Below, in pieces: positions 707 to 18,070 of a DNA stretch of 18,070 nt. The notes beneath the pieces were generated by a model. That model had not been told where the DNA came from. It worked only from the letters and a program-made list of their open reading frames with translations, and made no database searches. Position 1 is the stretch's first letter. Every line of letters starts with the position of its first letter. The stretch lies in assembly GCA_021325365.1 (NCBI GenBank), contig JAJPHF010000133.1, forward strand, positions 1 to 18,070. The letters run 5' to 3'. The translations under genes and the position numbers were made by a program. Source of the DNA: Pseudomonadota bacterium. Lineage in GTDB: Bacteria > Chloroflexota > UBA6077 > JAJPHF01.

Positions 707-3019
707 TTATCCGCGCTGGGCGAGCGCGGCCTTCACCCGCTCGGCGGTGAAGGGCACGCGGCGCAGTCGCACCCCCGTCGCGTCGTGGATCGCGTTCGCG
801 ATCACCGCCCCCAGCGGGATGCACCCCGACTCCCCCGCGCCCGACGACCGCACGTCCGGGCGGTTGATCAGCACCACGTCCACGTCCGGCACGTCGTTGA
901 ACGTCAGGATCGGGTACGTCCGCCAGTCGATGCTGGTCACGCCCGTGCTGTCCCAGGTGGCCTCCTCGAACAGCGCGCGGCTCAGCCCTTGCAGCACGTT
1001 GCCCTCGATCTGGTTGCGCACGCCGTCGGGATTGACGATCAGCCCGCAATCGTGCGCGACCACGATGCGCGGCACCCGCACCGCGCCGCTGTCCGGGTCC
1101 ACCTCCACGTCGGCCACCGCGCTCACCCAGGTGGTGCCCGTCTGCGGCGTCACGCCGTACTCGGTCAGCGCCACGCCGCGGCCCGTCAGGACGCCTCCCG
1201 TCGCGGCGCCCCGCTTCGGTGAGGGCCGCGTCTCCCAGCCGGCGCGCTCCGTCGCCGCCCGTAGCGCGTCGATGGCACGCGGGTCCGACAGGTAGCGCAG
1301 GCGGTACTGCACCGGGTCCTGGCCCGCCGCCGCCGCCAGCTCGTCGATGAACGACTCGGCGGCAAAGGCGCTCAGAATCGCCCCCAGGCTGCGGTTGTTG
1401 CCGTAGCGCAGCACCGCGCGGTCGAGGGCGTGCAGCACGTAGCGGCGGTTGGCGAAGTCGTAGAACTTCGGCGTGTCGTCGCCCACGAACACCGGGTCGA
1501 GCGGGATCACCCAGTTGCCGCCGGTCTGGTCGCCCAGCAGCGCCTGGCCGGTGTGCCGCGCCGACCACGCTTGGTGCTCCCAGGCCACCACGTTGCCGCT
1601 CGCGTCCAGGCCAGCGCGCATGTCGAACAGCATCGGCGTGTTCGCGTGGTCCCAGCCGTGCTCGTCCTGGCGCATCCACTGCACGCGCACGGGCCGGCCC
1701 ACCGCCTGCGACAGCATGGCTGCGTCGAGGGCCGCGTCGTCGGTCGTGTAGCGCCCGTAGCAGCCCGAGCCCTCCGTGTAGATGATCCGCACGTTCTCGA
1801 TCGGCAGGCCGAGCCGCTGGGCCAACAGCCGCTGGTGCCCCAGCGGGTACTGCGTGCCCGACCACACCGTCGCGCGGCCGTCGCGCACGTCCGCCACGCC
1901 GCAGTCCGGCCCCATCATCGCGTGGATCTGCTGCGGCCACTCGTAGGTCGCCTGGAGGGTACGCGCCGCGCTCGCCAGCGCCCCGTCCACGTCGCCCACC
2001 TCGGCCAGCACGCGATCGTCGCTCGGCGTGTTTCGCATGAGCGTGAACACCTCCGCCTGGGGCGGCAGCCCCGGCGGGTCCGACCACGTGACCTTGAGCT
2101 GACGCGCGGCCTTGATCGCGTTCTCCTCGCGCTCGGCCACCACGCCCACCCAGTTGCCCTGCCGCACCACCTGCACGAGGCCCGGCACGTCGCTCACCGA
2201 GTCCTCGTCCACGCTCACCAGCGTGACGCCCGACTGCGGCGGGCTGGGCCGCACCACGCGGCCGTGCAGCATCCCCGGCACGCGCACGTTCTGCACGTAC
2301 TGATAGGTGCCGACCATCTTAGCCGGGATGTCCACGCGCGGAATCGACCGCCCGACGATCGTGTACTGCGCGGGGTCCTTCGGCTGGGCGTCGTCGCTCA
2401 CCGCGACGCCGAAGCGCTGGCCGCCGATCAGGTCGCCATAGGAGGCGCTGCGCGTGGGCGCCTGGTCGTTCGGCTGCCAGGGGTCCGACGCCACGTAGAC
2501 GATGCCATCTTTGACGGTGAGCTGGTCGGCCGGCACGCCGAGCCGCTCGGCCGCCAGGCCGACGAGGGCCTGTCGCGCCGCGGCCGCCGCGCGCCGGATC
2601 TCGGCGCCGCCGCGCGATACCGTGGTGCTCCCCACCGAGGCACCCTGGTCCACCGTGCGAGCGGTGTCGCCCTGGAGGATGGTGACGCGGTCGAGGGGCA
2701 CGTCTAGCTCCTCGGCGGCGATCTGCACGAGCGCCGTCTCGACGCCGGTGCCCAGCTCGACGCGGCCCGAGTAGACCGTCACCGCGCCGTCGCCGTCGAT
2801 CGCCAGCCAGGAGTCGAGCAGGTCCGCCGGGTCGCCGAATGGCGGCGGCTGCTGCGCGTGCGCCGCGGGCGCCGAGAGCAGCCGCGCGGGGCCGGCCACG
2901 CTGACGCCGACGACGAGGATGCCGCTGGCCTTCAGGAAGGTGCGCCGCGAGAGCCCGCGGCGCGGGGTCGAGGTCGCGCTAGTGGTGGCGGCGGTTCGCG
3001 CCTGCTCGTTCGCGCTCAT
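707..3019 (-). CDS. IorB-like molybdopterin-binding subunit of a xanthine dehydrogenase-family hydroxylase, Tat-exported
   Basis: Encodes 770 aa, the usual size for the large subunit of two-subunit molybdenum hydroxylases of the isoquinoline 1-oxidoreductase (IorAB) type, which hydroxylate N-heteroaromatics or oxidise aldehydes with water. A twin-arginine signal (SRRTFLK, RR at 25-26), a hydrophobic stretch and an AHA-Q site near residue 55 predict export with its folded partner. GSGCYGR matches the molybdopterin-contact glycine motif, and GAGESG near the C-terminus supplies the conserved catalytic Glu (about E730). The start ATG at 3019 overlaps the stop of the 2Fe-2S subunit by four bases (ATGA), so translation is probably coupled. 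The frame stays open upstream to 3352, but that part is antisense-like and covered by the 2Fe-2S gene. There is no FAD subunit or XdhC maturation gene nearby. Substrate unknown. Confidence 0.9.
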   Translation of the reverse strand: MSANEQARTAATTSATSTPRRGLSRRTFLKASGILVVGVSVAGPARLLSAPAAHAQQPPPFGDPADLLDSWLAIDGDGAVTVYSGRVELGTGVETALVQIAAEELDVPLDRVTILQGDTARTVDQGASVGSTTVSRGGAEIRRAAAAARQALVGLAAERLGVPADQLTVKDGIVYVASDPWQPNDQAPTRSASYGDLIGGQRFGVAVSDDAQPKDPAQYTIVGRSIPRVDIPAKMVGTYQYVQNVRVPGMLHGRVVRPSPPQSGVTLVSVDEDSVSDVPGLVQVVRQGNWVGVVAEREENAIKAARQLKVTWSDPPGLPPQAEVFTLMRNTPSDDRVLAEVGDVDGALASAARTLQATYEWPQQIHAMMGPDCGVADVRDGRATVWSGTQYPLGHQRLLAQRLGLPIENVRIIYTEGSGCYGRYTTDDAALDAAMLSQAVGRPVRVQWMRQDEHGWDHANTPMLFDMRAGLDASGNVVAWEHQAWSARHTGQALLGDQTGGNWVIPLDPVFVGDDTPKFYDFANRRYVLHALDRAVLRYGNNRSLGAILSAFAAESFIDELAAAAGQDPVQYRLRYLSDPRAIDALRAATERAGWETRPSPKRGAATGGVLTGRGVALTEYGVTPQTGTTWVSAVADVEVDPDSGAVRVPRIVVAHDCGLIVNPDGVRNQIEGNVLQGLSRALFEEATWDSTGVTSIDWRTYPILTFNDVPDVDVVLINRPDVRSSGAGESGCIPLGAVIANAIHDATGVRLRRVPFTAERVKAALAQRG

Positions 3020-3474
3020 GCCTGTAGCCCCCGTGCGTAGCGGCTCACGGCTCGCAGGATGCGCAGGTGCGTGGCGCAACGGCAGAGGTTGCGCGACATC
3101 GCCTGCCGGATAGCCGCCTCGTCGGCGTTGGGATTGCTGTCGAGGAATGCCTTGGCCGTGATGATCATGCCGTTGATGCAGTAGCCGCACTGCGCGGCCT
3201 GCTCGTCGATGAAGGCCTGCTGGAGCGGGTGCGGGTTGTCCTCGGTGCCCAGCCCCTCCAGGGTAATCACCTCGGCCCCCTCGGCCGCCGAGAGGGGCGT
3301 GACGCACGAGCGCGTCGCGCGCCCGTTCATGAGGACCTCGCAGGCGCCGCACTGCGACAGCCCACAGCCAAACTTCGGGCCGGTCAGCCCGAGATCGTTG
3401 CGCAGCACGTACAGCAGCGGCGTGTCGGGCTCGGCATCCACCGTGTACGTGCGGCCATTCACGTTCAGGTCCAC
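3016..3474 (-). CDS. IorA-like (2Fe-2S)-binding subunit of molybdenum hydroxylase
   Basis: Small iron-sulfur subunit carrying two [2Fe-2S] clusters that pass electrons from the molybdenum site. With a GTG start at 3474 it is 152 aa, typical of IorA, and begins directly at the family core (DLNVNGRTYTVD). The plant-type cluster is C37, C42, C45, C57 (CX4CX2CX11C). The second is C96, C99, C131, C133 (CX2C-X31-CXC). The GTG has an AAGGGAGG ribosome site eight bases upstream; an in-frame ATG at 3534 would add 20 residues with no family match. It has no signal peptide and probably leaves the cell by hitch-hiking on the Tat signal of the large subunit, as is usual for this family. Its stop overlaps the next start (ATGA). 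It is the first gene of the minus-strand pair, divergent from the UbiD gene. Confidence 0.9.
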   Translation of the reverse strand: MDLNVNGRTYTVDAEPDTPLLYVLRNDLGLTGPKFGCGLSQCGACEVLMNGRATRSCVTPLSAAEGAEVITLEGLGTEDNPHPLQQAFIDEQAAQCGYCINGMIITAKAFLDSNPNADEAAIRQAMSRNLCRCATHLRILRAVSRYARGLQA

Positions 3475-3659
3475 CGCCTGCACCTCCCTTCCCGATACTG
3501 CTCCGGGCCAGCGCTCCACCGCGTCGGGCGCCATGCGCCCCCGATGATTTCGCAGCTTACCATAGTGTACGGCGCCCGGCTACGCCCGGCGTGGCGCGGG
3601 GGCGCGGCGCTATGCTAAGAAGAAGCGAGTCCAACGCTTGCAGCCGCGAGGGAGGCGCC

Positions 3660-5087
3660 ATGCCGAAGGATCTGCGCACGTTTCTCGACCAGGTGGCGCG
3701 CACCATGCCCGACGAGGTGCGCGTCGTGTCGCAGGAGGTCGACCCGCGCTGGGGCGCCACCGCTGTAGCCGCGCGCCTGGAGCAGCAGCAGCGCTTCCCC
3801 GCGCTCGTCTTCCGCCGCGTGCGCGGCTCGCGCATCCCCGTCGTGCTGAACCTGACGGCCACCTACGAGCGCCTCGCCCTCTCCCTCGATACCGACGTCG
3901 AGAACATGGTGCGCGTCTACGGCGAGCGCCAGGCCAAGCCGATCCGCCCCGTGGACGTGCCCGCCGGCCCCGTGCACGACGTGGTGCTCACCGGCGCCGA
4001 CGCGCGGCTCGACGTGCTGCCGATCCTCACCCACAACGCCCTCGACGCCGGGCCGTTCGTCGCGGGCGGCTGCCTGGTGGCGCGCGACCCCGACAGCGGC
4101 GCCGTCAACGTCGGCCTCTACCGCCACCAGGTGCTCGGGCCGCAGCGCCTGGGCGTGTTTTTCAACGACGGCCACCACGGCGACTACTTGCGGCGGCGCT
4201 ACGAGGAACTCAACCGCCCGATGGAGGTCGCCATCGCCATCGGCCATCATCCGGGGTTCATGATGGGCGCCGTCTCGCGGTTGCCGGGCATCGGCGAGGA
4301 GTTCGGCGAGGCCGGCGCGCTGATGGACGAGCCGGTGGAGCTGGTGCGCGCGAAGACGGTGGACCTGCCGGTGCCGGCGCGGGCCGAGATCGTCATCGAG
4401 GGCGTCATCCCGCCGGGCGCGCGCCAGTTCGAGGGGCCGTTCGGTGAGTGGCCGGGCCACTACACGGCCGACGGCGACAAGCCGTACATCGACGTAACCG
4501 CCATTACCATGCGCCGCGACGCGATCTACTACGACGTGGTCGCGGCCCACCGCGAGCATGTCGTGCTGGGCAGCCTGCCGCGCATGGGCAGCGTCTACCG
4601 CCGCGTGAAGCAGGTCGTGCCGGGCGTGCAGCAGGTGAACGTCCCGGCGCATAGCCGCATGCACTGCTACGTGGCGATCAAGAAGACCGCCGACGCCGAG
4701 GTGGGCCGGGCGGCCTACGCCGCGCTGCTCACCGAGCCCGAGAACTTCCGCATGATCGTCGTGGTGGACGACGACGTGAACGTGTTCAACGACGGCGACG
4801 TGCTCTGGGCCATCGGCACGCGGTTCCACGCCGACACCGACCTCGTCATGGTGCCGAACATCGGCGGCCCGGGGGGCCTCAGCCCCGTCGGCTACAACTT
4901 CGGCCCGAACGGCGAGAAGACGCCGCGCCCCAGCATGGCGATCATCGTCGACGCGACCAAGCCCGCGCCGCCCGCCGAGTACCCGCCGCGCGCCGTCGTG
5001 CCCGACGAGGCCATTCGCGCCGTCGACCTCGACGGCCTGCTCGAGCCCTACACCGCCGAGTCCCTCTCCCTGACGCCCGCCCCATGA
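3660..5087 (+). CDS. UbiD-family prenylated-FMN-dependent decarboxylase
   Basis: Encodes 475 aa, full length for UbiD/Fdc enzymes, which reversibly decarboxylate aromatic or alpha,beta-unsaturated acids with prenylated FMN. The catalytic triad is present: Arg155 in VNVGLYRHQV, and Glu258 and Glu263 in EGPFGEW, matching R173, E277 and E282 of Fdc1. The ATG at 3660 follows a GGGAGG site (GAGGGAGGCGCC) and starts at the family N-terminus (MPKDLRTFL). No UbiX prenyltransferase is in the window, so the cofactor must come from elsewhere. It heads a plus-strand group with a PLP enzyme and an LLM oxidoreductase and diverges from iorAB, which suggests a shared aromatic substrate. That link is inference; the family alone does not give the substrate. 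Confidence 0.92.
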   Translation: MPKDLRTFLDQVARTMPDEVRVVSQEVDPRWGATAVAARLEQQQRFPALVFRRVRGSRIPVVLNLTATYERLALSLDTDVENMVRVYGERQAKPIRPVDVPAGPVHDVVLTGADARLDVLPILTHNALDAGPFVAGGCLVARDPDSGAVNVGLYRHQVLGPQRLGVFFNDGHHGDYLRRRYEELNRPMEVAIAIGHHPGFMMGAVSRLPGIGEEFGEAGALMDEPVELVRAKTVDLPVPARAEIVIEGVIPPGARQFEGPFGEWPGHYTADGDKPYIDVTAITMRRDAIYYDVVAAHREHVVLGSLPRMGSVYRRVKQVVPGVQQVNVPAHSRMHCYVAIKKTADAEVGRAAYAALLTEPENFRMIVVVDDDVNVFNDGDVLWAIGTRFHADTDLVMVPNIGGPGGLSPVGYNFGPNGEKTPRPSMAIIVDATKPAPPAEYPPRAVVPDEAIRAVDLDGLLEPYTAESLSLTPAP

Positions 5088-6513: not shown

Positions 6514-7520
6514 TCTTCACCCTCTCCATCCCGACCTGCCGCGAGGGACTGACGCTCCCCGTGCCGTTCGCCAGCGCCGACGAGCTGGTGCAGATGGCGG
6601 TGCTGGCGGACCGGCTCGGCTACCACTCGGTGTGGGGCAACGACCACATCACCCCGCCCAGCTACGTCCGCGACACCTACGCGCAAACGCCCAACTTCTT
6701 CGAGCCGCTGACCATCCTCACCTACGTGGCGGCCCAAACCGCGCGCATCCGGCTGGGCACCAGCGTCATCCCGCTGCCGCTGCGCGAGCCGGCCTACCTG
6801 GCCAAGCAGGTCGCCACCCTCGACGTGCTCTCGGGCGGGCGGGTGCTGCTCGGCGTGGGGCTGGGCGCCTACCGCGAGGAGTACGAGCGCCTATGGCCGC
6901 GGCGCCGCCGCGTGCGGCGCGAAGACCTGCTGAACGAGGGCATCGAGGCGCTGACGCTGCTGTTCCGCGACGAGGAGGCGAGCTACGCCGGCCAGCACGT
7001 CGCCTTCGACGGCATCCGCCTCGCGCCCAAGCCCGTGCAGCAGCCGCTGCCGCTCTACGTCGCCGGCAACAGCCCGGGCGCCATCGAGCGCGCGGCGCGC
7101 TGGGGCGCAGGCTGGCTGCCGGCGGCGCTCGCGCCCGCCGCCGTGGCGCGCGGCGCGGCCCGCCTGCGCGAGGCTGCCGCCCGCCACGGCCGCGACCCCG
7201 CCAGCCTCCACGTCGGCCCGCAGCTAAGCTGCGTCATCGCGCCCAGCCGCGCCGCCGCCCGCCGCCGCTTCGAGGGCAGCCAGACCCACAAGCACCTCGT
7301 CAGCCTCGCCGCCTCGACCCTCAAGGGCGCGGACCTCTCGCGCCTGGAGGACACGCTCCTGATCGGCTCGCCTGCCGAGATCGTCGAGCAGATCGGCGCC
7401 TACGCCGACGCTGGTGCGACCATGCTCGCGGCGATGATCTTCGTCAGCGAGACGCCCCAGGCCATGCTCGACGACATCCAGCACTTCGCCGAGGCCGTCC
7501 TCCCCGCCTTCGGCGCCTAG
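6510..7520 (+). CDS. LLM-class flavin-dependent oxidoreductase (luciferase-like)
   Basis: Encodes 336 aa, usual length for bacterial luciferase-like (TIM-barrel) oxidoreductases that use F420 or FMNH2. Family marks include an early WGNDHITPP segment, the LGTSVIPLPLREP strand, the KQVATLDVLSGGR helix-strand, then GVGLGAYREEYE, and a late flavin-phosphate region (LPLYVAGNSPGAIERAARWG). It starts with an ATG overlapping the previous stop by four bases, so it is translationally coupled to the PLP enzyme. Sequence alone does not decide between F420-dependent reductase/dehydrogenase and FMN-dependent monooxygenase. In this setting oxidation of a ring or decarboxylated product is plausible but unproven. 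It ends 11 bases before a perfect palindrome. Confidence 0.88.
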   Translation: MIFTLSIPTCREGLTLPVPFASADELVQMAVLADRLGYHSVWGNDHITPPSYVRDTYAQTPNFFEPLTILTYVAAQTARIRLGTSVIPLPLREPAYLAKQVATLDVLSGGRVLLGVGLGAYREEYERLWPRRRRVRREDLLNEGIEALTLLFRDEEASYAGQHVAFDGIRLAPKPVQQPLPLYVAGNSPGAIERAARWGAGWLPAALAPAAVARGAARLREAAARHGRDPASLHVGPQLSCVIAPSRAAARRRFEGSQTHKHLVSLAASTLKGADLSRLEDTLLIGSPAEIVEQIGAYADAGATMLAAMIFVSETPQAMLDDIQHFAEAVLPAFGA

Positions 7521-7531
7521 CTACCAGTCGG

Positions 7532-7587
7532 TGATTGGTAGATGGCTGGGGAGTGTGAGCTCACACTCCCCAGCCATCTACCAATCA
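7532..7587. terminator. Perfect 56-bp palindrome between convergent genes
   Basis: Arms 7532-7559 and 7560-7587 are exact reverse complements with no spacer (28 bp each). It sits between the LLM stop (7520) and the stop of the convergent lipoprotein gene (7595). CTACCAGTC at 7521-7529 can also pair with GATTGGTAG inside the left arm (one G-T pair), so alternative folds exist. The most likely role is a bidirectional terminator. No U-run follows. Confidence 0.7.
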
Positions 7588-7594
7588 GGGATTA

Positions 7595-8701
7595 CTACTG
7601 CGCCCGCGCCATCTCCAGGTACTTGAAGTCGAGGTACTTGTCGCGGCTGGGCAGCGGCTGCGTCGCCTCGCCCGTCTCCACCAGCATGTCTTCCATCGCC
7701 TTCAGGCCGCCTGCGGGCGCCTCGCCGTCGTGCGGGAAGAACTGCTCCTGCTCGATCCACTGCTCGTAGGTGCGCCGCGCGTAATCCTCGCTCAGCTGCA
7801 TGCGGTCTTGCAGCACGCCCATCGCCTGCGCTTTGTTGGCCGGATCGTACAGCCAGTGCAGGCTGTTCACATACGCGCGCAAGAAGCGCACCGTCGCGTC
7901 CTGGTTGTTCTGCGCCCAGTTGCGCATCGCCGCCAGGAACTGGAACTGGTACTCCGGCACCGCCTCGTTCACCTCGGCGAGGCGCTTCAGGCCCATGTCC
8001 TCCAGCCGGTAGTTGTCGGGCGGCGGCATGATCGTGCCGTCGATCTGCTTCGTGCTCATCGCCGTCACGCGGTTGCGCGACGCGCCCGCCACGACCAGGC
8101 TGTAGTCGCTCTCGGTCAGCCCATACTTGCGCAACAGCGCCTTCATGAACACGACCTCGCCCGTGCGCAGCGCCGACGCGCCCAGCGTCTTCCCCTTCAG
8201 GTCCGTGATCCGCTGGATCTCCGGCTGCACCATAAGGCTATAGCTGGCCTTGTTGTTGAAGCCCGCGATGCCGATGGCGTCCGCGCCGCGCATCTGTGCC
8301 AGGACGACCACCTCGCTGTTCGTCGTAATCACGTCCAGCGAGCCGCCGGCCAGCGCCGACAGCCCATCGCTGCCGCTGCGCGTCTCGGTTGTCTCCACGT
8401 CGAGCGCCTCGCGGTCGAAGAAGCCCTTGTCGAGCCCCACATAGATCGGCCAGTAGAAGGCCGAGAAATTCACCAGCCCATACTCGATCTTGCGCCGCGC
8501 CGGCACGGCCGTGGGCGCGCTCGCCGCCGGCGCACTGCCCGCCGTCGCATTCGCCGCGGGCGCGCTCGTCGCCGCCCCGCCCGCCGCCGGCGCCGCCGGC
8601 GCGCTCCCGGTCGGCTTGGCGGGCGCGGCCGCCGGCGTGCTGCACGCCAGCAGCGCGAGAGCGAGCGCGCCCACGAGTCCTGGCGCAAGCCTCCGAATCA
8701 T
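7595..8701 (-). CDS. ABC-type substrate-binding lipoprotein (SsuA/NMT1/THI5-like)
   Basis: Encodes 368 aa with a lipoprotein signal (MIRRLAPGL, then a hydrophobic run) and lipobox LLAC with Cys20. An Ala/Pro/Ser/Thr linker runs to about residue 66, followed by a periplasmic-binding-protein core starting KIEYGLVNFSAFYWPIYVG and GFFDREALDVE, as in NMT1/THI5 and SsuA proteins that bind nitrate, sulfonates, pyrimidine precursors or aromatic acids. I chose the ATG at 8701 because AAGGGGGAG lies six bases upstream; the in-frame ATG at 8707 would leave almost no spacing. A promoter-like pair lies at 8733-8761. No permease or ATPase gene is in the window, so it is an orphan here. Ligand unknown. Confidence 0.85.
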   Translation of the reverse strand: MIRRLAPGLVGALALALLACSTPAAAPAKPTGSAPAAPAAGGAATSAPAANATAGSAPAASAPTAVPARRKIEYGLVNFSAFYWPIYVGLDKGFFDREALDVETTETRSGSDGLSALAGGSLDVITTNSEVVVLAQMRGADAIGIAGFNNKASYSLMVQPEIQRITDLKGKTLGASALRTGEVVFMKALLRKYGLTESDYSLVVAGASRNRVTAMSTKQIDGTIMPPPDNYRLEDMGLKRLAEVNEAVPEYQFQFLAAMRNWAQNNQDATVRFLRAYVNSLHWLYDPANKAQAMGVLQDRMQLSEDYARRTYEQWIEQEQFFPHDGEAPAGGLKAMEDMLVETGEATQPLPSRDKYLDFKYLEMARAQ

Positions 8702-8732
8702 CGACATCTCCCCCTTACATAAATGCTAAGGC

Positions 8733-8761
8733 AGTATGCGGCTCCGCCCGGGTGCGGGCAA
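8733..8761 (-). promoter_or_regulatory. Sigma-70-like promoter for the lipoprotein gene
   Basis: On the minus strand TTGCCC (8761-8756) and CATACT (8738-8733) are separated by exactly 17 bases, each matching four of six consensus positions. A start site near 8726 would give a leader of about 25 bases before the ATG at 8701. Confidence 0.45.
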
Positions 8762-8770
8762 GGAGCACCT

Positions 8771-8958
8771 AGACCCCTCTCCCCCCAGCCCCCCTCTCCC
8801 CCATAGGGGCAAGGGGATGCCCGCTCCCTCTCCCCCGACTCCGTCGGAAAGCCCCCGCTCCCTGATACGTAGGCGGGGAGCCGGCTCCGCCGGGGCCACC
8901 CCCACCGGAAGCCCCCCTTCCCCTTCTGGGGGAAGGGGGGGTGGGGGGAGAGGGGTCT
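8771..8958. repeat. MITE-like element with about 32-bp terminal inverted repeats
   Basis: The segment begins AGACCCCTCTCCCCCCA and ends with the exact reverse complement of those 17 bases. Beyond that the arms stay similar for about 15 more bases with one substitution and one gap. The 188-bp unit has no coding content I trust and lies between two minus-strand genes, ending seven bases from the acyl-CoA dehydrogenase stop. No clear target-site duplication is visible. It may be a non-autonomous element or an interspersed hairpin repeat that also ends transcription. Confidence 0.55.
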
Positions 8959-10480: not shown

Positions 10481-11611
10481 ATGGACAGGACCTGCGAGCG
10501 GATCCACCGGCGCGGGGCCCAGGCCGGTAGGCACGTAGCCCGCATGGCGCCCCTGCTGCTCGCCCTCGCGGCGCTCGGCGGGCTGCTGGCGGCCTGCCAG
10601 CCCGTGCCCGCCGCGTCCAGCGCCCCGCCCCCCGCGGCCCCGCCCGCCGCCAGCGCGCCGGCCAGCGCGGCGCCCGCCGCCCCGCCCGCGCTCATCCCGC
10701 TCGCCGCGGCCAATCCCGTCATCGGCTCCGTCTCAATGGTCGTCCCCGTGCTCCAGCGGCTCGGGCTGTTCCAGGAATACGGCCTCGACGCCACCGTGAC
10801 CTACATCCAGAGCGGCCAGCGTACCGCCGCCTCCGTCATCGCCGGCGAGACGCCGATCGCTTTCTCGGGCGGTCAGCCCGTTATCAGCACCCAGCTCAGC
10901 GGCGGCGACCTGGTGTGCGTCGCCATCCTCGTGCCGCGCTTCACCTACGACGTGCAGGTCACGTCGAACATCGAGCGCCCCGAGCAGCTGCGCGGCGGGC
11001 TGATCAGCAGCTCCTCGCGTGGCGGCACCGCCGACATGGCGCTCCAGTATCTGGCCGAGCAGTGGGGCATGAAGCTCGACGAGGACGTGCACGTGCTGGC
11101 CACCGGCGGCCAGCCCGAGCGCCTGGCCGCCCTCGAATCGGGCCAGGTCCAGGCCGCGATGGTCGAGCCGCCGTTCTCGCTCATCGCCCAGCGCATGGGG
11201 TTCCACACGCTCGTCAACCTGCGCGACGCCGACTACGAGGCACCCACCTACGGCGTCATCACCACCCGCGCCTACATCGCCAGCAACGAGGAGGTGGTGC
11301 GCCGCTTCCTGCGCGCCGCGGTAGCCGCCGTCCACCGCATGAAGACCGACCCGGAGAGCCTGGTGCCGCTGCTGGTCGACGAGTACAAGCTGGACGGCCC
11401 GGAGTTCGCCCGCGAGATGCTGAACGAGGTCCCCCTCAAGCTCATGCCGCGCGCGCCCTACCCGACGCCGCGCATGTTCGAGAACACCATCCGCAACCTG
11501 GCGCTCACCACGCCCGAGGTCGCCCAGCTCCGCGTCGAGGACCTGATCGAGCCCCGCTTCGTCCGCGAGCTGGACGAGGGCGGCTTCATCCGCGGCCTCT
11601 ACGGCGACTAA
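10481..11611 (+). CDS. Second ABC-type substrate-binding lipoprotein (NMT1/THI5-like)
   Basis: Encodes 376 aa. A charged N-region of about 22 residues precedes a hydrophobic segment and lipobox LAAC with Cys39, then an Ala/Pro/Ser linker to about residue 73. The binding-protein core shows VLQRLGLFQEYGLDATV, the GETPIAFSGG segment and AALESGQVQAAMVEPP, all typical of NMT1/SsuA proteins. A GGGAGG site lies five bases before the ATG. It resembles the lipoprotein at 7595-8701 in class but not closely in sequence, so the two probably bind different ligands or are old paralogues. No transporter membrane or ATPase genes accompany it. A run of hairpin repeats begins at its stop codon. Confidence 0.86.
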   Translation: MDRTCERIHRRGAQAGRHVARMAPLLLALAALGGLLAACQPVPAASSAPPPAAPPAASAPASAAPAAPPALIPLAAANPVIGSVSMVVPVLQRLGLFQEYGLDATVTYIQSGQRTAASVIAGETPIAFSGGQPVISTQLSGGDLVCVAILVPRFTYDVQVTSNIERPEQLRGGLISSSSRGGTADMALQYLAEQWGMKLDEDVHVLATGGQPERLAALESGQVQAAMVEPPFSLIAQRMGFHTLVNLRDADYEAPTYGVITTRAYIASNEEVVRRFLRAAVAAVHRMKTDPESLVPLLVDEYKLDGPEFAREMLNEVPLKLMPRAPYPTPRMFENTIRNLALTTPEVAQLRVEDLIEPRFVRELDEGGFIRGLYGD

Positions 11612-11737
11612 GCCCTCGTCTCTCTGCGAGAGGGCCGGAGTGAACGCGCGTCTTACGCCCTCTCCCCCTGGGAGAGGGCGGGGGTGAGGGCGCGTCTTAC
11701 TCTCTCTCCCTCTGGGAGAGGGCTGGGGTGAGGGCGT
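11611..11737. repeat. Three tandem hairpin units between convergent genes
   Basis: Units start at about 11611, 11657 and 11701. The first two end with the same GCGCGTCTTAC, and the last two share GGGAGAGGGC followed by GGGGTGAGGGCG. The middle unit forms a 10-bp stem (GCCCTCTCCC/GGGAGAGGGC), the third a 7-bp stem, and the first is degenerate. They lie exactly between the convergent stops at 11611 and 11758 and probably act as a two-way transcription end. Confidence 0.65.
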
Positions 11738-11757: not shown

Positions 11758-13269
11758 TCAGCGTACGGCCACCCCCGCACGCTCCGGCCGCGGGAACGGC
11801 GCGTACCGCGCGCGTACCCCCTGGTACAGGTCGGGCGCGCGCAAGCCCAGGTCCGCGAGGTCCTGGGCCACGAAGTCGATGAAGATCTGGCGCACGTGGC
11901 CGTTCTGCGCCGTCTTGATGCCCAGCGCGCAGTAGCGCTCCTCGTTCGGCGACCCGTCGCGGCCGAACACGTCCACGGCGTACCGATACCACTTGTCCAC
12001 GGCCGCCTGGACGGCCTCGTGGTGGCCCGCGGCGAGCAGCCCCCGCGTGCGCTCGCGCCATGCCGCGAAGAAGCCCTCGTGCGCCCGGTAGTGCATGCCC
12101 GCCCAGGCCGCGAACGGCACCAGGCAGCTGCCGAAGCACGCCAGGCTCGACAACATGTTCGCGCGCGCCCACAGCATCTGCTGCGGACACGTCTCCACCC
12201 AGTCGTCGCCGAGCGGCTGCTTGAGGAAGTCCACCTTCGCGCGGCCGCCCGCCAGCGTGCGCTCCGCCTCGTCGGCGAGGGCATCCGGGTCCTCGCCGAG
12301 CGCGCGCAGGAAGCGCGCCACGTGCAGCCCGAGCGCCCGCTCGTCGCGCAGCTGGTGCCCGGTCGCCACCTTCTCCTCCGGCGTCGGCGCCGAGAAGACG
12401 ATGGGATCGTTCTGGCGCGCGTACTTCGCCTGCACCCACCCCCGCAGCAGCTTTGCCAGCCACGGCCGCGTCGCCGCCGGCACCTCGTCGACGTCGAGAT
12501 ACACCTGCAGCGCCGCGTCGGGCTCCTCGGGATAGTGGTGGCGATCGCCCTGCCAGGGATCGGGCGGCAGCCGCAGCCCCAGCGCGTCCAGGTCCCGCTG
12601 CAGCGAGCGCATCCACAGGCGTCGCGTCTGGTTGTTCGTGAGCGTCTTGATCCCCAGCTCCAGGTACTTCCGCTCGTTCGGCGTGCCCACGCCGCCGAAG
12701 ATGTCCAGGCACCACGGATAGAACTTGTCGGCCGCGCGCTGGCATTCCGCCGCGCGGCCCTCCTCGATCAGCCGCCGCGTGTAGCGCACGCCCTGCACGG
12801 TATGCCCCAGCGCCTCGTCGCCGTAGTTCTTGGCGTGCCATAGCGCCAGCGGCACGAACCACGTGCCCAGCCCCGCCACCGTCTGGATGGCGCCGGTGCG
12901 CTCGGCCAGCACGCGGGTCAGCGTGCGCTCGACCCAGTTCTCCATCCGCATGCGGAAGTAGTCCAGCTTGCGCGAGCCCTCCGTGACCGAGCCCTCGGCC
13001 TCCTTGATGTACGCGGTCGGGTCAACCCCCAGGCTCCGCAGCATCTGCGCGACGCCCAGACCGTGCTCCTTCTCCTGCGAGAGCTGCAGATCCAGCCAGG
13101 TCTTGTCCTCGACGGTCGGGCACACCGCGCCCGAGCGGTCCGGCGCGTCGCCGTACTCCGACTGGAGCTGCACCGTCAGCATCTTCACTAGATACTGCCG
13201 CGCCTCCGCCGGCAGCTCGTCCGCCGTGAAGTAGAACTTGCGGTTGCGCACCGTCTCCGGGATGGGCAT
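11758..13269 (-). CDS. Tandem PaaA-like ferritin-fold di-iron protein (fused catalytic and degenerate halves)
   Basis: Encodes 503 aa made of two PaaA/PaaC-type domains, residues about 15-240 and 255-482. Each ends with a matching (T/S)PNE..Y..LGIKT segment and a DLxxLGLRxP stretch, which align with the SPNSARSLTWKIKRFTN and LGMTVPDP region of E. coli PaaA. PaaA is the oxygenase subunit that epoxidises phenylacetyl-CoA. Against its ligands E42, E72, H75, D126, E155 and H158, domain 1 has E38, E66, H69, E123 and H156, with E152 one residue off the expected place. Domain 2 has K282, E310, L313, A368, E398 and F401, so most ligands are lost. This mimics the PaaA-PaaC pair in a single chain. The ATG at 13269 has GGAGGGGG upstream. 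No paaB, paaD or paaE reductase is seen. Substrate unknown; an aryl- or acyl-CoA is plausible. Confidence 0.82.
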   Translation of the reverse strand: MPIPETVRNRKFYFTADELPAEARQYLVKMLTVQLQSEYGDAPDRSGAVCPTVEDKTWLDLQLSQEKEHGLGVAQMLRSLGVDPTAYIKEAEGSVTEGSRKLDYFRMRMENWVERTLTRVLAERTGAIQTVAGLGTWFVPLALWHAKNYGDEALGHTVQGVRYTRRLIEEGRAAECQRAADKFYPWCLDIFGGVGTPNERKYLELGIKTLTNNQTRRLWMRSLQRDLDALGLRLPPDPWQGDRHHYPEEPDAALQVYLDVDEVPAATRPWLAKLLRGWVQAKYARQNDPIVFSAPTPEEKVATGHQLRDERALGLHVARFLRALGEDPDALADEAERTLAGGRAKVDFLKQPLGDDWVETCPQQMLWARANMLSSLACFGSCLVPFAAWAGMHYRAHEGFFAAWRERTRGLLAAGHHEAVQAAVDKWYRYAVDVFGRDGSPNEERYCALGIKTAQNGHVRQIFIDFVAQDLADLGLRAPDLYQGVRARYAPFPRPERAGVAVR

Positions 13270-13659
13270 GACCGCCCCCTCCAGCAAGCTTGGACAAACG
13301 CCGGCCCCCTACCACCTCGTCGGGACGGGCGGGAGTACGCACGTGCCTCGTCGGGGCGGGCTTCACGCCCGCCCGCGGCCTGTGGCGCGGCATCCGGCCA
13401 GCGCCCCTGCTCCCGTCCCAGAGCCGGAGCGACCGGTCCGGCCGGCGTAGCGGGGGCTTGGGGCGCGGCATCCGGCCAGCGCCACTGGCCGCCGCCCTGG
13501 CCCAGCGCCGCCCAGGCTGCGCGAGCGCCCACCGGCCCCTGTCCGCGAATGGCTGACTGCCGACCGCTTACTCTAACATAGGGACGCCGCCCCCTCGCCG
13601 GGCGAGCATTATTCCCCGCCGTCAGCCGCCAGCCGCTGACGGCTGATAGCTGACGGCCA
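13270..13659. repeat. Repeat-rich divergent intergenic region
   Basis: No gene is supported in these 390 bases. They contain an identical 22-bp direct repeat at 13384-13405 and 13462-13483, two CCTCGTCGGG copies near 13315 and 13347, and a perfect 8-bp hairpin GGGCGGGC/GCCCGCCC (13354-13374) of a kind widespread in high-GC genomes. A GTCAGC/GCTGAC hairpin (13621-13640) runs into further GCTGA-type copies that include the start codon at 13660. Confidence 0.6.
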
Positions 13660-15219
13660 ATGGCTGATCGCGCCCCCTGGGCCATCCACGCCGGCGCCCT
13701 GCTGCGCCGCGGCGCCGCCCGCGCGCCGCGCAAGATCGCCGTCATTTGGGAGGAGGGCGCGCGCACCTACGGCGACCTGCTGCGCCGCGTGGACCGCCTC
13801 TCCGCCGGGCTCGCGGCGCACGGCGTTCAGCGCGGCGACCGCGTGGGCGTCCTGTTTCCGAACGGCCCCCACTTCCTCGAGGCCTGGTGGGCCGTCGCCC
13901 AGCTCGGCGCCGTCGTCGTGCCGCTCAGCACCCGCGCCGTGCCGCGCGAGCTGGCCTACGTCCTGACCGACGCCGAGGCCGTCGCCGTGCTGGCCGACGC
14001 CGCGTTTCTGCCCACGCTACTGGACGTGCGCCGCGAGGTGCCCTCCCTGCGGCTGCTGGTCGGCCACGGCGACGCGCTCCCGCCCGAGGTCGTGCCGTTC
14101 GATGCCCTGGCCGAGGGGCCGCCCGTCGCGCCGCCGGCCGTGGACCTCGCCCTGAGCGATCCGTGCGCGATCTACTACACCGCCGGCACGACGGGCGTCT
14201 CGAAGGGCGCCGTGCGCTCGCACCTCAGCGTCACGTGGGGCCTGGCGCTGCTCGCGGCCGCCATCCCGCCCGACGAGGTCTACCTGGCGCGGGCGCCGAT
14301 GTACCATACCGGCGGCTCGCTCACCGGCCCCTTCGCCACCCTCGCCGCGGGCGCCACGCTCGTCAGCATGCGCGGCTTCGAGCCTCGCGCCCTGCTCGCC
14401 GCCGTCGAGCGCCACCGCATCACCCGCGCCTACGTCCACCCTACGCTCGTCGCCAACGCCCTGCTGGACGAGCTGGACCGCCGCCCCTACGATCTGACCT
14501 CGCTGCGCTACGTCCAGTGGACCGCCGGGCCGCTGCCCGAGGCCGTGCGCGCCCGCCTGCTGGAGCGCTTCGCCGGCCTCCCCTTCGAGGTCACCTACGG
14601 CATGACCGAGGTCAGCAACATCGCCAGCTACCAGTACACGGGCGGGCCGCTGAAGGCCGCGAGCTGCGTGGGCCTCGGCCCCATCGGCACCGCCATCCGC
14701 ATCGTGGACGAGGACGACCAGCCCGTGCCCGCCGGCCGCGTCGGCGAGGTAGCGGTGCGCTCGCCCACGGCGATGACCGGCTACTGGCGCGACCCCGCGC
14801 GCACGGCCGCGGTGCTCGCCGGCGGCTGGGTCCACACCGGCGACCTGGGCTACCTCGACGCCGACGGCTACCTCCACCTCGCCGGGCGGCAGAAGGACGC
14901 CATCGTGACCGGCGGCGAGACGGTCCACGCCGTCGAGGTCGAGAACGCGCTGGCCAGCCTGCCCGCCGTCGTCGAGGCGGCCGTCGTCGGCCTGCCCGAC
15001 CCGACGTGGGGCGAAGCCATCACCGCCGTCGTCGTCGCCCGCCCCGGCGCCGCCCTGACCGACGCCGCGATCATCGCCCACTGCCGCCAGCACCTAGCCG
15101 GCCACAAGTGCCCCAAGCGCGTCCTCTTCGTCGACGCCCTCCCCAAGAACGCCGTTGGCAAAGTCCAGAAAGTCGAGCTGGTGCGCCGTTACGGGGCTGA
15201 TCCGAGGGCAGACCGGTAA
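13660..15219 (+). CDS. Acyl-CoA synthetase (class I adenylate-forming ligase)
   Basis: Encodes 519 aa, standard for fatty-acid or aryl-acid CoA ligases, which form an acyl-AMP and then the CoA thioester. Core motifs are intact: YYTAGTTGVSKG (172-183), YGMTE (313-317), HTGDLGYLD (392-400), GRQKDAIVTGGE (409-420) and the C-terminal PKNAVGK with catalytic Lys501. Acid specificity cannot be read from the sequence. The ATG at 13660 lies inside a GCTGA-type repeat and has no clear ribosome site, so the start is less certain than the rest. It is followed by an acetyltransferase and an enoyl-CoA hydratase on the same strand and diverges from the PaaA-like gene, which fits CoA activation of an acid before oxygenation or beta-oxidation. 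Confidence 0.9.
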   Translation: MADRAPWAIHAGALLRRGAARAPRKIAVIWEEGARTYGDLLRRVDRLSAGLAAHGVQRGDRVGVLFPNGPHFLEAWWAVAQLGAVVVPLSTRAVPRELAYVLTDAEAVAVLADAAFLPTLLDVRREVPSLRLLVGHGDALPPEVVPFDALAEGPPVAPPAVDLALSDPCAIYYTAGTTGVSKGAVRSHLSVTWGLALLAAAIPPDEVYLARAPMYHTGGSLTGPFATLAAGATLVSMRGFEPRALLAAVERHRITRAYVHPTLVANALLDELDRRPYDLTSLRYVQWTAGPLPEAVRARLLERFAGLPFEVTYGMTEVSNIASYQYTGGPLKAASCVGLGPIGTAIRIVDEDDQPVPAGRVGEVAVRSPTAMTGYWRDPARTAAVLAGGWVHTGDLGYLDADGYLHLAGRQKDAIVTGGETVHAVEVENALASLPAVVEAAVVGLPDPTWGEAITAVVVARPGAALTDAAIIAHCRQHLAGHKCPKRVLFVDALPKNAVGKVQKVELVRRYGADPRADR

Positions 15220-15804: not shown

Positions 15805-16584
15805 ATGCCTTACGACACGATCCTTTTCGAGGTGCGCGAGCGCGTCGCCTACATCACGCTGAACCGCCCCGAGCAGCTCAATGCGCTCAGCTTCCCGATG
15901 CGCGCCGAGCTGAGCCAGGCGTTCGACGCCTGCGCCGCCGACGACGCCGTGCGCGCCGTCGTGTTGGCCGGCGCCGGGCGCGCGTTCTGCGCGGGCGTCG
16001 ATCTCGGCGACGGCAGCTTCGAGGAGAGCCCCGTCGAGTCCGTCGAGGTGCGCGTGCGCGGCGACTTCCGCGCCAAGCTCGTCGGCATGGGCAAGCCGAC
16101 CGTCGCCGCCGTCCAGGGCTACGCGCTCGGCGGCGGCTGCGAGCTGGCGCTGTGCTGCGACCTGCGCCTGGCCGCCGAGGACGCGCAGTTCGGCCTGCCC
16201 GAGATCAACCTCGGCTCCATTCCCGCCGGCGGCGCCACCCAGCGCCTGCCGCGCCTCATCGGCCCCACCCGCGCCCTGGAGCTGCTCATGACGGGCGACC
16301 GCCTGCCCGCCGACGAGGCCTACCGCCTCGGCCTCGTGAACCGCGTCGTCCCACGCGACGCGCTGCCCGACGCCGCCGCCGAGCTAGCGGGCAAGCTCGC
16401 CGCGAAGGCCCCCCTCGCCATCCGCTACCTCCGCGAGGCCGTCTACCGCGGCCTCGACCTGCCGCTCGACGACGGTATCCGCCTGGAAGCCTACCTCGGC
16501 GGCCTGCTCCGCACGACCGAGGATCGCGTCGAGGGCCTCGCCGCCTTCCGCGAGAAGCGTCCGCCCAACTTCCAGGGGCGCTAA
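15805..16584 (+). CDS. Enoyl-CoA hydratase/isomerase family (crotonase)
   Basis: Encodes 259 aa, typical crotonase length. It hydrates 2-enoyl-CoA in beta-oxidation-like pathways. The oxyanion-hole segments are AFCAGVDL (60-67) and GYALGGGCELAL (105-116). Both catalytic glutamates of true hydratases are present: Glu113 in GGGCE and Glu133 in LPEINLG, matching E144 and E164 of rat mitochondrial hydratase. The ATG at 15805 follows GAGGAG by eight bases. It is last in the plus-strand group with the acyl-CoA synthetase. The upstream GNAT gene is 52 bases away. Confidence 0.92.
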   Translation: MPYDTILFEVRERVAYITLNRPEQLNALSFPMRAELSQAFDACAADDAVRAVVLAGAGRAFCAGVDLGDGSFEESPVESVEVRVRGDFRAKLVGMGKPTVAAVQGYALGGGCELALCCDLRLAAEDAQFGLPEINLGSIPAGGATQRLPRLIGPTRALELLMTGDRLPADEAYRLGLVNRVVPRDALPDAAAELAGKLAAKAPLAIRYLREAVYRGLDLPLDDGIRLEAYLGGLLRTTEDRVEGLAAFREKRPPNFQGR

Positions 16585-16709
16585 GCACCTCCAGGCCGTG
16601 ACTCGGGGGCCTGCGGCGCCGGCTCCGGCGTGGCGGTGGTTGCGGCCGCGGCGGGAGCCGTGGGCGAGGGCGTCAGGGTGCGCGTCGGCGTCAGCCGCGG
16701 TCGCCCCAT
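16581..16709 (-). other. Possible short Thr/Pro-rich ORF or remnant of a protein tail
   Basis: A 42-residue frame (ATG at 16709, TAG at 16583-16581 overlapping the hydratase stop) reads LTPTRTLTPSPTAPAAAA, then TTATPEPAPQAP. This composition is like linkers and tails of exported Chloroflexota-type proteins. An in-frame stop lies just upstream, so it is at best a leftover fragment or a chance product of GC-rich sequence. Confidence 0.15.
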
Positions 16710-17195
16710 GCCACTCCCCCATCGTCGCTAAGCTGGCTGTGGCCCCCGGCCCCCCGGCCCGCGGCGGCCCCCTGACCAGACGGTCTCCGCTCGCTAGCGA
16801 CACACAGGAGTCCCGGCCCGCACTAGGCCGGCTCGCCCAGAGCGATCGCCCCGCGGTGGGCGCGCGCGTCTCGCCCGCTTGGGCACCGTCCGCCCCGCTG
16901 CCCCCCTGGGGGCGCGCGCGTCGCCCGCCCTCGCGGCCGCGCTCGGCGGTCCGCGGCTGCTGGATTGAGCGGGTGCGCGGCCGCCTGATTGCACCCAAAT
17001 GTGCGCCGGCGCACAGCCACACTGTGAGCGCGCCCGCGTTGTCCGATGGTTCACGTCGGGATAGTGAGCCGCGTCGCAGTCCTGGCCAGGTTTTGCTTCT
17101 AGACTGCTGCTATAGGACAGCGGCCCGCCACACGGGCGCTGACCCTCCAAGAACAAACAACCACTCGGCGGTAGAGGAAGGAGCGGAGGACGATC
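16585..17195. other. 611-bp intergenic region, leader of the repeat gene
   Basis: Apart from the doubtful short minus-strand frame at 16581-16709, I find no convincing gene. Longer open frames here have Arg/Pro/Ala-biased products typical of unselected GC-rich DNA. GC drops in the last 110 bases, where promoter-like and ribosome-binding sequences appear. No tRNA or riboswitch is recognised. Confidence 0.55.
17108..17116 (+). promoter_or_regulatory. Possible extended -10 promoter for the repeat gene
   Basis: TGCTATAGG matches an extended -10 (TGn followed by a TATAAT-like box) in a locally AT-richer stretch 80 bases before the start. The upstream TTGCTT (17093-17098) is only 12 bases away, too close for a normal -35, so the call depends on the extended -10 alone. 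Confidence 0.3.
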
Positions 17196-18070
17196 ATGAC
17201 GCGGAAGAGCAGCGTGCAGCCCAAGGCGCAGCACCTGGTGTTGGCAGCAGGCATGGCAATGAGCCTCGTGCTCGGCGGCATTGGCCCGGCGGTGATTCGG
17301 CCGGCCCACGCGGCCGAGTTGTTCCAGCCCGCCTGGGGTACCATTGGTGGCAACGGCGGGAACGGCGGCGATGCGACCGGGCGCGGCGCGGTCGGCGGGA
17401 ATGGCGGCAACGGCGGCAACGCCCACGGGCTGGGCGCCGTCGGTGGCAATGGTGGTAACGGCGGGAACGCCCACGGCCCGGGCGCGATCGGCGGCAATGG
17501 GGGCAACGGGGGCAACGCCCACGGGCTGGGAGCCGTCGGCGGTAACGGCGGGAACGGCGGCAACGCGACTGGCCCAGGGGCCCAGGGTGGCAACGGTGGC
17601 AATGGTGGCAATGCTACCGGGCCAGGGGCGGTCGGCGGCAACGGCGGCACTGGTGGCAACGCTCACGGGCCGGGTGCGACCGGCGGCAATGGTGGCAACG
17701 GCGGCAACGCGACCGGGCCGGGTGCGACCGGCGGTAACGGCGGCAACGGCGGCAATGCGCACGGCCCCGGGGCCGTGGGCGGTAACGGTGGCAATGGCGG
17801 CAACGCTCACGGGCCGGGTGCGACTGGCGGCAACGGGGGCACTGGTGGCAACGCCACCGGCACCGGCGCCCAGGGGGGCAACGGGGGCACTGGTGGCAAC
17901 GCCACCGGCACCGGCGCCCAGGGGGGCAACGGGGGCAATGGTGGCAACGCGACTGGTCCGGGCGCCCAGGGCGGTAATGGCGGCAATGGTGGGAACGCGA
18001 CCGGCACCGGCGCGACCGGCGGCAACGGTGGGAACGGCGGCAATGCGACTGGTCCGGGCGCTCAGGGGGG
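17196..18070 (+). CDS. Secreted Gly/Asn-rich (PGRS-like) repeat protein, N-terminal part (3' end missing)
   Basis: The ATG at 17196 follows GGAGGA by five bases. The product opens with a signal peptide (MTRKSSVQPK, a hydrophobic run to about residue 37, and an AHA-A cleavage site at 39/40), then a short spacer. From residue 50 it is 15 full units plus part of a sixteenth, each 16 residues: X-GGNGGNGGN-A(T/H)G(P/L/T)GA with X being Val, Thr, Gln or Ile. The frame is open to the end of the window. The pattern resembles mycobacterial PE_PGRS arrays, for which polyglycine-II-type folds have been proposed, but a Sec-type signal replaces the PE domain. Bases 18000-18070 equal 1-71 in frame, so the C-terminal part is probably the sequence at 1-585, giving a 462-aa protein. 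Surface or matrix role inferred; function unknown. Confidence 0.82.
   Translation, partial: MTRKSSVQPKAQHLVLAAGMAMSLVLGGIGPAVIRPAHAAELFQPAWGTIGGNGGNGGDATGRGAVGGNGGNGGNAHGLGAVGGNGGNGGNAHGPGAIGGNGGNGGNAHGLGAVGGNGGNGGNATGPGAQGGNGGNGGNATGPGAVGGNGGTGGNAHGPGATGGNGGNGGNATGPGATGGNGGNGGNAHGPGAVGGNGGNGGNAHGPGATGGNGGTGGNATGTGAQGGNGGTGGNATGTGAQGGNGGNGGNATGPGAQGGNGGNGGNATGTGATGGNGGNGGNATGPGAQG
17343..18070 (+). repeat. 48-bp coding tandem repeat array, 3' contig end
   Basis: Fifteen complete 48-bp units run without interruption from 17343 to 18062, with a sixteenth cut by the window end. Units differ mainly at the X position and in the A(T/H)G(P/L/T)GA half. The copies at 17831-17878 and 17879-17926 are identical, showing recent expansion. 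Confidence 0.9.
18000..18070. repeat. 71-bp terminal direct repeat (identical to 1-71)
   Basis: Every base of 18000-18070 equals 1-71, and the codon phase is the same. Exact end overlap is what an assembler leaves on a circular molecule, or when both ends stop inside the same repeat. Confidence 0.9.

Follow-up and report, generated by a model that had tools for sequence, protein, structure and literature searches.

Aerobic oxygenases acting on coenzyme A (CoA) esters include the PaaABCE and BoxAB systems. According to PMC4498308 and PMC7497051, PaaA and PaaC are two chains, each forming a ferritin-like bundle, of which one binds metal and the other does not. The expected PaaA ligands are Glu42, Glu72, His75, Asp126, Glu155 and His158, and Lys68 forms with Glu49, Glu72 and Asp126 a lysine bridge that was proposed to relay electrons from PaaE. 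PaaA alone is insoluble (PMC4498308). BoxB is a single chain that does not need a separate structural subunit (PMC4498308); its Gln116 touches benzoyl-CoA and Glu120 (PMC5489048). Here we describe a gene that joins two bundles of this kind in one chain. It lies on the minus strand at 11758..13269 of the window, that is, the whole stretch of 18,070 nucleotides from contig JAJPHF010000133.1 that was analysed. Homology and gene neighbours point to a CoA-thioester oxygenase, and the product is probably a single-chain diiron oxygenase of a CoA ester that carries its own structural partner and presumably epoxidises a ring.

Architecture and predicted metal site of the fusion protein

The open reading frame (ORF) encodes 503 amino acids from an ATG at 13269; an alternative upstream TTG would extend it to 11758-13287. 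The protein matches PF05138 (PaaA_PaaC) in two stretches (E 8.3e-15; 55.1 bits against a gathering cut-off of 28.5). When solved structures were searched by sequence, residues 17-238 aligned with residues 23-245 of E. coli PaaA (E 2.5e-4) and residues 398-480 with another PaaA (E 6.6e-4). Domain 1 (residues 1-249; 12523..13269, minus strand) and domain 2 (residues 250-503 and the stop codon; 11758..12522, minus strand) share 35.7% identity across 241 aligned positions (BLASTP E 4e-45). A sequence-only reading of the window had proposed two PaaA-type halves in one chain; all three comparisons agree with it, and the relation to PaaA on which it depended is recovered by the Pfam profile. Among NCBIfam models at E <= 0.01, the PaaA equivalog TIGR02156 was the sole match, far below its cut-off (46.9 bits vs 280). 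By its sequence, the fusion protein is of the PaaA/BoxB kind but outside the PaaA equivalog.

Protein searches scored about 8,000 candidates sharing most words with the query. The single sequence retrieved 75 proteins (among the 7995 best candidates) and a profile retrieved 76 in the same scope, from sources including Chloroflexota (P0012 and P0020, 74-75% identical), Burkholderiaceae and Piscinibacter sakaiensis. The earlier reading had suggested looking for other two-domain proteins of about 500 amino acids, and 65 of the 76 are indeed at least 470 amino acids long; conservation counts rest on these, with the 11 shorter ones left out. Viral contigs gave no match, and plasmids only three weak ones (40-45% query cover, 24-27% identity).

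In domain 1, E38, Q62, E66, H69, E123, D151, E152 and H156 are invariant in all 65 full-length homologues. The set of four carboxylates and two histidines that marks diiron ferritin-like oxygenases, spread over four helices, is thus present in 65/65, with helix 4 longer by one residue between its ligands. The sequence-only reading had listed Glu38, Glu66, His69, Glu123 and His156, each of which the alignment confirms, but the list was incomplete, since it missed the sixth candidate, Glu152. As it had also stated, the aligned positions of domain 2 hold Lys282, Leu313, Ala368 and Phe401, and Glu310 is kept. Lys282 is shared by 64 of the 65 homologues, the remaining one having Ser, and 64 carry Glu or Asp at position 310; no homologue has His at position 313 or an acidic residue at position 368. 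Pairwise identity averages 73.9% for domain 1 vs 55.5% for domain 2, with domain 1 higher in 2079 of 2080 pairs. The conservation pattern indicates that a diiron-type site is under selection in domain 1, and in its place a lysine in domain 2, where Lys282 is perhaps salt-bridged to residue 310. Judged by these residues, domain 2 has lost its metal site.

Domain 1 is only 24.5% identical to E. coli PaaA and differs from it in several respects. Glu123 stands for Asp126, and the lysine bridge residue is missing: the position aligned with Lys68 is Gln62 in 65/65 fusion proteins, Lys in four of four PaaA rows, and Gln in eight of nine rows of the unfused "A-like" proteins discussed below (Lys in P0097). 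On helix 4, domain 1 carries D-E-x3-H, one residue longer than the E-x2-H of PaaA and BoxB, and so do all nine A-like rows. Four residues before the first Glu ligand stands a glutamine (Gln34), found in 63 of 65 fusion proteins (Ser in the other two), 9/9 A-like and 2/2 BoxB rows, with His in 4/4 PaaA rows. As far as a comparison of residues can show, the thioester may therefore be held more as in BoxB. The same architecture could serve other chemistry, such as hydroxylation, desaturation, N-oxygenation or oxidative cleavage of a non-aromatic or heteroaromatic CoA ester. We regard this as unlikely, although not negligibly so: the glutamine matches the BoxB substrate contact, and the crotonase and aldehyde dehydrogenase neighbours described below suit the handling of an epoxide or oxepin.

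Origin of domain 2 and an unfused counterpart

A tree of 57 rows was built, like profile A1, on 18 of the 65 full-length homologues and 9 of the 13 A-like proteins. The PaaC of G001, one of four genomes with fusion genes (G001 to G004), was left out, and the PaaA rows of G001-G003 were trimmed N-terminally. Domain 1 forms one group (99/99) and domain 2 another (100/100); together with the A-like proteins, both are separated from PaaA, BoxB and PaaC, although the deep joins are weak and the rows for C-like, Rhodococcus, Variovorax, P0097 and E. coli PaaC proteins have long branches. That ordinary adjacent paaA and paaC genes were fused by a frameshift or an assembly error was rejected on account of the 65 homologues, one of them in the record of Piscinibacter sakaiensis 201-F6, and the separate grouping of both domains likewise leaves such an artefact a vanishingly small probability.

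Two histories of domain 2 were compared. The preferred, albeit unproven, course is that the catalytic domain was duplicated and one copy then decayed; the grouping of domains 1 and 2 together has support of only 83/53. A captured PaaC is less likely by profile comparison, in which domain 2 is nearer to domain 1 than to PaaC (hhalign, domain 2 vs PaaC, E 0.006), but the tree does not reject domain 2 with PaaC (approximately unbiased test, p-AU 0.25). In the same topology tests, domain 1 with the A-like proteins gave 0.359 (not rejected) and domain 1 with A-like proteins and PaaA 0.089.

A census of 399 genomes sampled from the order of G001 (profile A1, E <= 1e-20, at most three candidates scored per genome) matched two, G001 itself and G006, the latter through an unfused gene; in the family of G006, profile A3 matched two of five genomes. 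The G006 locus, L027, runs crotonase, CoA ligase, an ORF of 376 amino acids (7441-8571; no Pfam match at E 0.001), a C-like protein of 256 amino acids without Pfam match, an A-like PF05138 protein of 275 amino acids, crotonase and a TctC protein. The 256-residue protein is nearest to domain 2 in hhalign (96.0%, E 4.6e-9), then to domain 1 (84.8%, E 6.5e-6), with PaaC at 0.2%. The 275-residue protein groups with 12 listed proteins of 268-278 amino acids (P0080-P0086, P0089, P0090, P0093-P0095), and domain 1 aligns with this A-like group at E 3.5e-56. L027-type A-like proteins share with the fusion the domain 1-type ligands, the glutamine and D-E-x3-H, and a CoA ligase and two crotonases adjoin the L027 pair; the genes are separate, however, and stand in the order C-like, A-like, the reverse of the fused one. 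Given these affinities, a similar partnership of a catalytic and a metal-poor protein seems to exist as two genes in L027, the one locus of the A-like group whose gene neighbourhood was covered. Elsewhere, L036 holds a single-bundle PF05138 protein (8104-8925; 86.9 bits) and, about 7 kb off, a PaaE-like reductase stretch (15958-16911; 25% identity, E 1e-13).

Domain 2 might instead pack elsewhere on domain 1 and serve in regulation or in docking the substrate or a reductase. It hardly resembles PaaC in sequence, as the hhalign comparison indicates, it has invariant residues of its own (e.g., Trp278 in 65/65), and a PaaA-PaaC-like pairing with domain 1 is presumed. On the other hand, the high pTM (predicted template modelling score) of the predicted whole-chain model would fit a heterodimer-type partner, and the unfused relative has a domain 2-like gene directly upstream of the A-like gene. 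We consider a role other than that of a PaaC-like scaffold rather improbable.

The family, small and combining a presumably active with a decayed bundle in one chain, is apparently not yet described. Among the open-licence PMC papers listed, none concerned a fused PaaA family, and PMC13186573 does not mention fusion, fused, PaaAC, PF05138 or Chloroflexota.

Neighbouring genes and the presumed source of electrons

As the sequence-only reading had claimed, a CoA ligase lies beside the fusion gene: an AMP-forming enzyme at 13660..15219 on the plus strand, divergent from it. An enoyl-CoA hydratase/isomerase-family protein (crotonase) follows at 15805..16584, also on the plus strand. A single scan of a genome collection found six betaproteobacterial loci, L001-L006, in four genomes (three metagenome-assembled genomes (MAGs) and P. 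sakaiensis 201-F6), all six with CoA ligase, crotonase and fusion gene in this order on one strand; L003 ends 1.1 kb and L004 0.2 kb after the fusion gene. Two of the MAGs each carry two paralogous ligase–crotonase–fusion cassettes (L001 to L004). The window ligase has 93 matches in these four genomes, and the best six (408-481 bits; next 275) are exactly the fusion-adjacent ones; for the crotonase, the best six of 30 (291-310 bits; next 194) are again those next to fusion genes. Both neighbours probably make and process the substrate of the fusion enzyme.

UbiD was set aside as a member of the system. It lies near the fusion gene in the window and adjacent to it in L001, and a UbiD-like fragment beside the L002 fusion was recognised by reading only, but it is not a consistent member. 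The window UbiD has 14 matches in G001-G003 and none in G004, and the fusion-adjacent one of L001 ranks fifth among them; the best-neighbour test used for the ligase and crotonase can thus fail.

No paaB, paaD or paaE had been seen near the fusion gene in the earlier reading, and this holds within the window: E. coli PaaB, PaaD and PaaE and the BoxA of G001 gave no tblastn match at E <= 0.01, although one query was used for each, so that remote forms could escape notice. In L001-L006, too, no match to E. coli PaaB or PaaE appeared at that threshold. PaaB and PaaE could lie elsewhere in the source genome of the window. In G001, G002 and G003, paaA, paaC and paaB are present, with full-length PaaE-like reductases above the cut-off in G002 and G003 and just below it in G001 (411.8 vs 420.8); BoxA exceeds its cut-off in G001, and BoxB-like genes in G001 and G003 were recognised by reading and alignment. 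PaaB and PaaE are above their cut-offs in G006. In G004, a MAG of 1.9 Mb, the fusion gene is the only PF05138 locus, the PaaE and BoxA models match weakly, and PaaB has no match. This gene content indicates that the fusion protein need not belong to a canonical Paa complex; unless genes are absent from the MAG, the G004 enzyme should use another reductase.

Other features of the window were also noted. Just downstream of the fusion gene, 11612-11736 holds 2.8 copies of a 44-base unit with an inverted CCCTCTCCC/GGGAGAGGG motif. Two NMT1-type substrate-binding proteins (7595-8707, minus; 10481-11611, plus) flank an acyl-CoA dehydrogenase gene; L001 likewise has an NMT1 protein, and both L006 and L027 have TctC proteins. 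At 707-3534 (minus) and 3591-5087 (plus), a molybdenum hydroxylase large subunit, recognised by profile, and an apparent 2Fe-2S small subunit, recognised by reading, lie beside the UbiD-family decarboxylase. Positions 1-71 are identical to 18000-18070, inside Gly/Asn-repeat ORFs (1-585; 17196-end) with tandem repeats, and the contig may have been closed by joining its ends through such a repeat.

Proposed function and comparison with known systems

In the favoured scheme, the neighbouring ligase would make an acyl- or aroyl-CoA. Domain 1 is predicted, from conservation and alignment with PaaA, to bind two irons via E38/E66/H69 and E123/E152/H156 and, by analogy with PaaA and BoxB, would activate O2 and oxygenate the CoA ester, most likely by ring epoxidation. 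Domain 2, probably a decayed duplicate, would be the covalently attached structural partner in the role of PaaC, its lysine occupying the would-be first ligand position. The crotonase would rearrange or hydrolyse the unstable product, like PaaG or BoxC, an aldehyde dehydrogenase would fit ring opening to a semialdehyde, and electrons would come from a reductase encoded elsewhere, not via a PaaB/PaaE-type arrangement.

Several observations weigh against this scheme. The window ligase and crotonase are on the strand opposite the fusion gene with a GNAT gene between them, and hence do not form one operon with it. Both fall below the cut-off of each of the 25 best NCBIfam models shown, which leaves the substrate unnamed. 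The aldehyde dehydrogenase follows the fusion gene in two of the six loci only (L005 and L006), the sequences of L003 and L004 stopping shortly after that gene. Neither E. coli PaaE nor G001 BoxA found a reductase by tblastn in the window or in L001-L006. Three of the four genomes with the triad are MAGs, completeness is not stated for that of G004, and the extra residue between the helix 4 ligands could alter the metal site.

Sequence gives good support to the earlier view of an active and a structural half, with pairing geometry and chemistry presumed; of the distinct oxygenase type it suggested, the position outside the PaaA equivalog and the conserved architecture stand, but the protein is better called a variant of the PaaA/BoxB kind. 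If the scheme is true, it would be a second, possibly independent, way to supply a diiron CoA-ester oxygenase with a metal-free partner, and the one-gene form may make expression and study simpler than with PaaABCE. The fusion gene also marks what seems to be an uncharacterised route of aerobic degradation, which accompanies canonical paa genes in G001-G003 but stands without them in G004.

Among described proteins, SSO1313 of Sulfolobus solfataricus (PDB 4mud, whose title names no function) has one bundle only. With the PaaABCE pathway (PMC4498308 and PMC7497051) the fusion loci share CoA ligase and crotonase partners; no PaaB, PaaD or PaaE was found near the fusion gene by tblastn. With BoxB, the fusion protein shares the single chain of similar length, the glutamine ahead of the first Glu ligand and, as pathway partners, crotonase-type and aldehyde dehydrogenase proteins. 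A bolder reading, somewhat less likely than not, would add the family as a third class to the aerobic CoA-dependent ring oxygenases, next to PaaABCE and BoxAB. In this class, the catalytic bundle would have been duplicated and one copy would have decayed to a scaffold for the other, its iron site filled by a lysine; electrons would arrive without PaaB or a lysine bridge, and the enzyme would serve a dedicated ligase–oxygenase–crotonase cassette common to (probably) Chloroflexota and betaproteobacteria.
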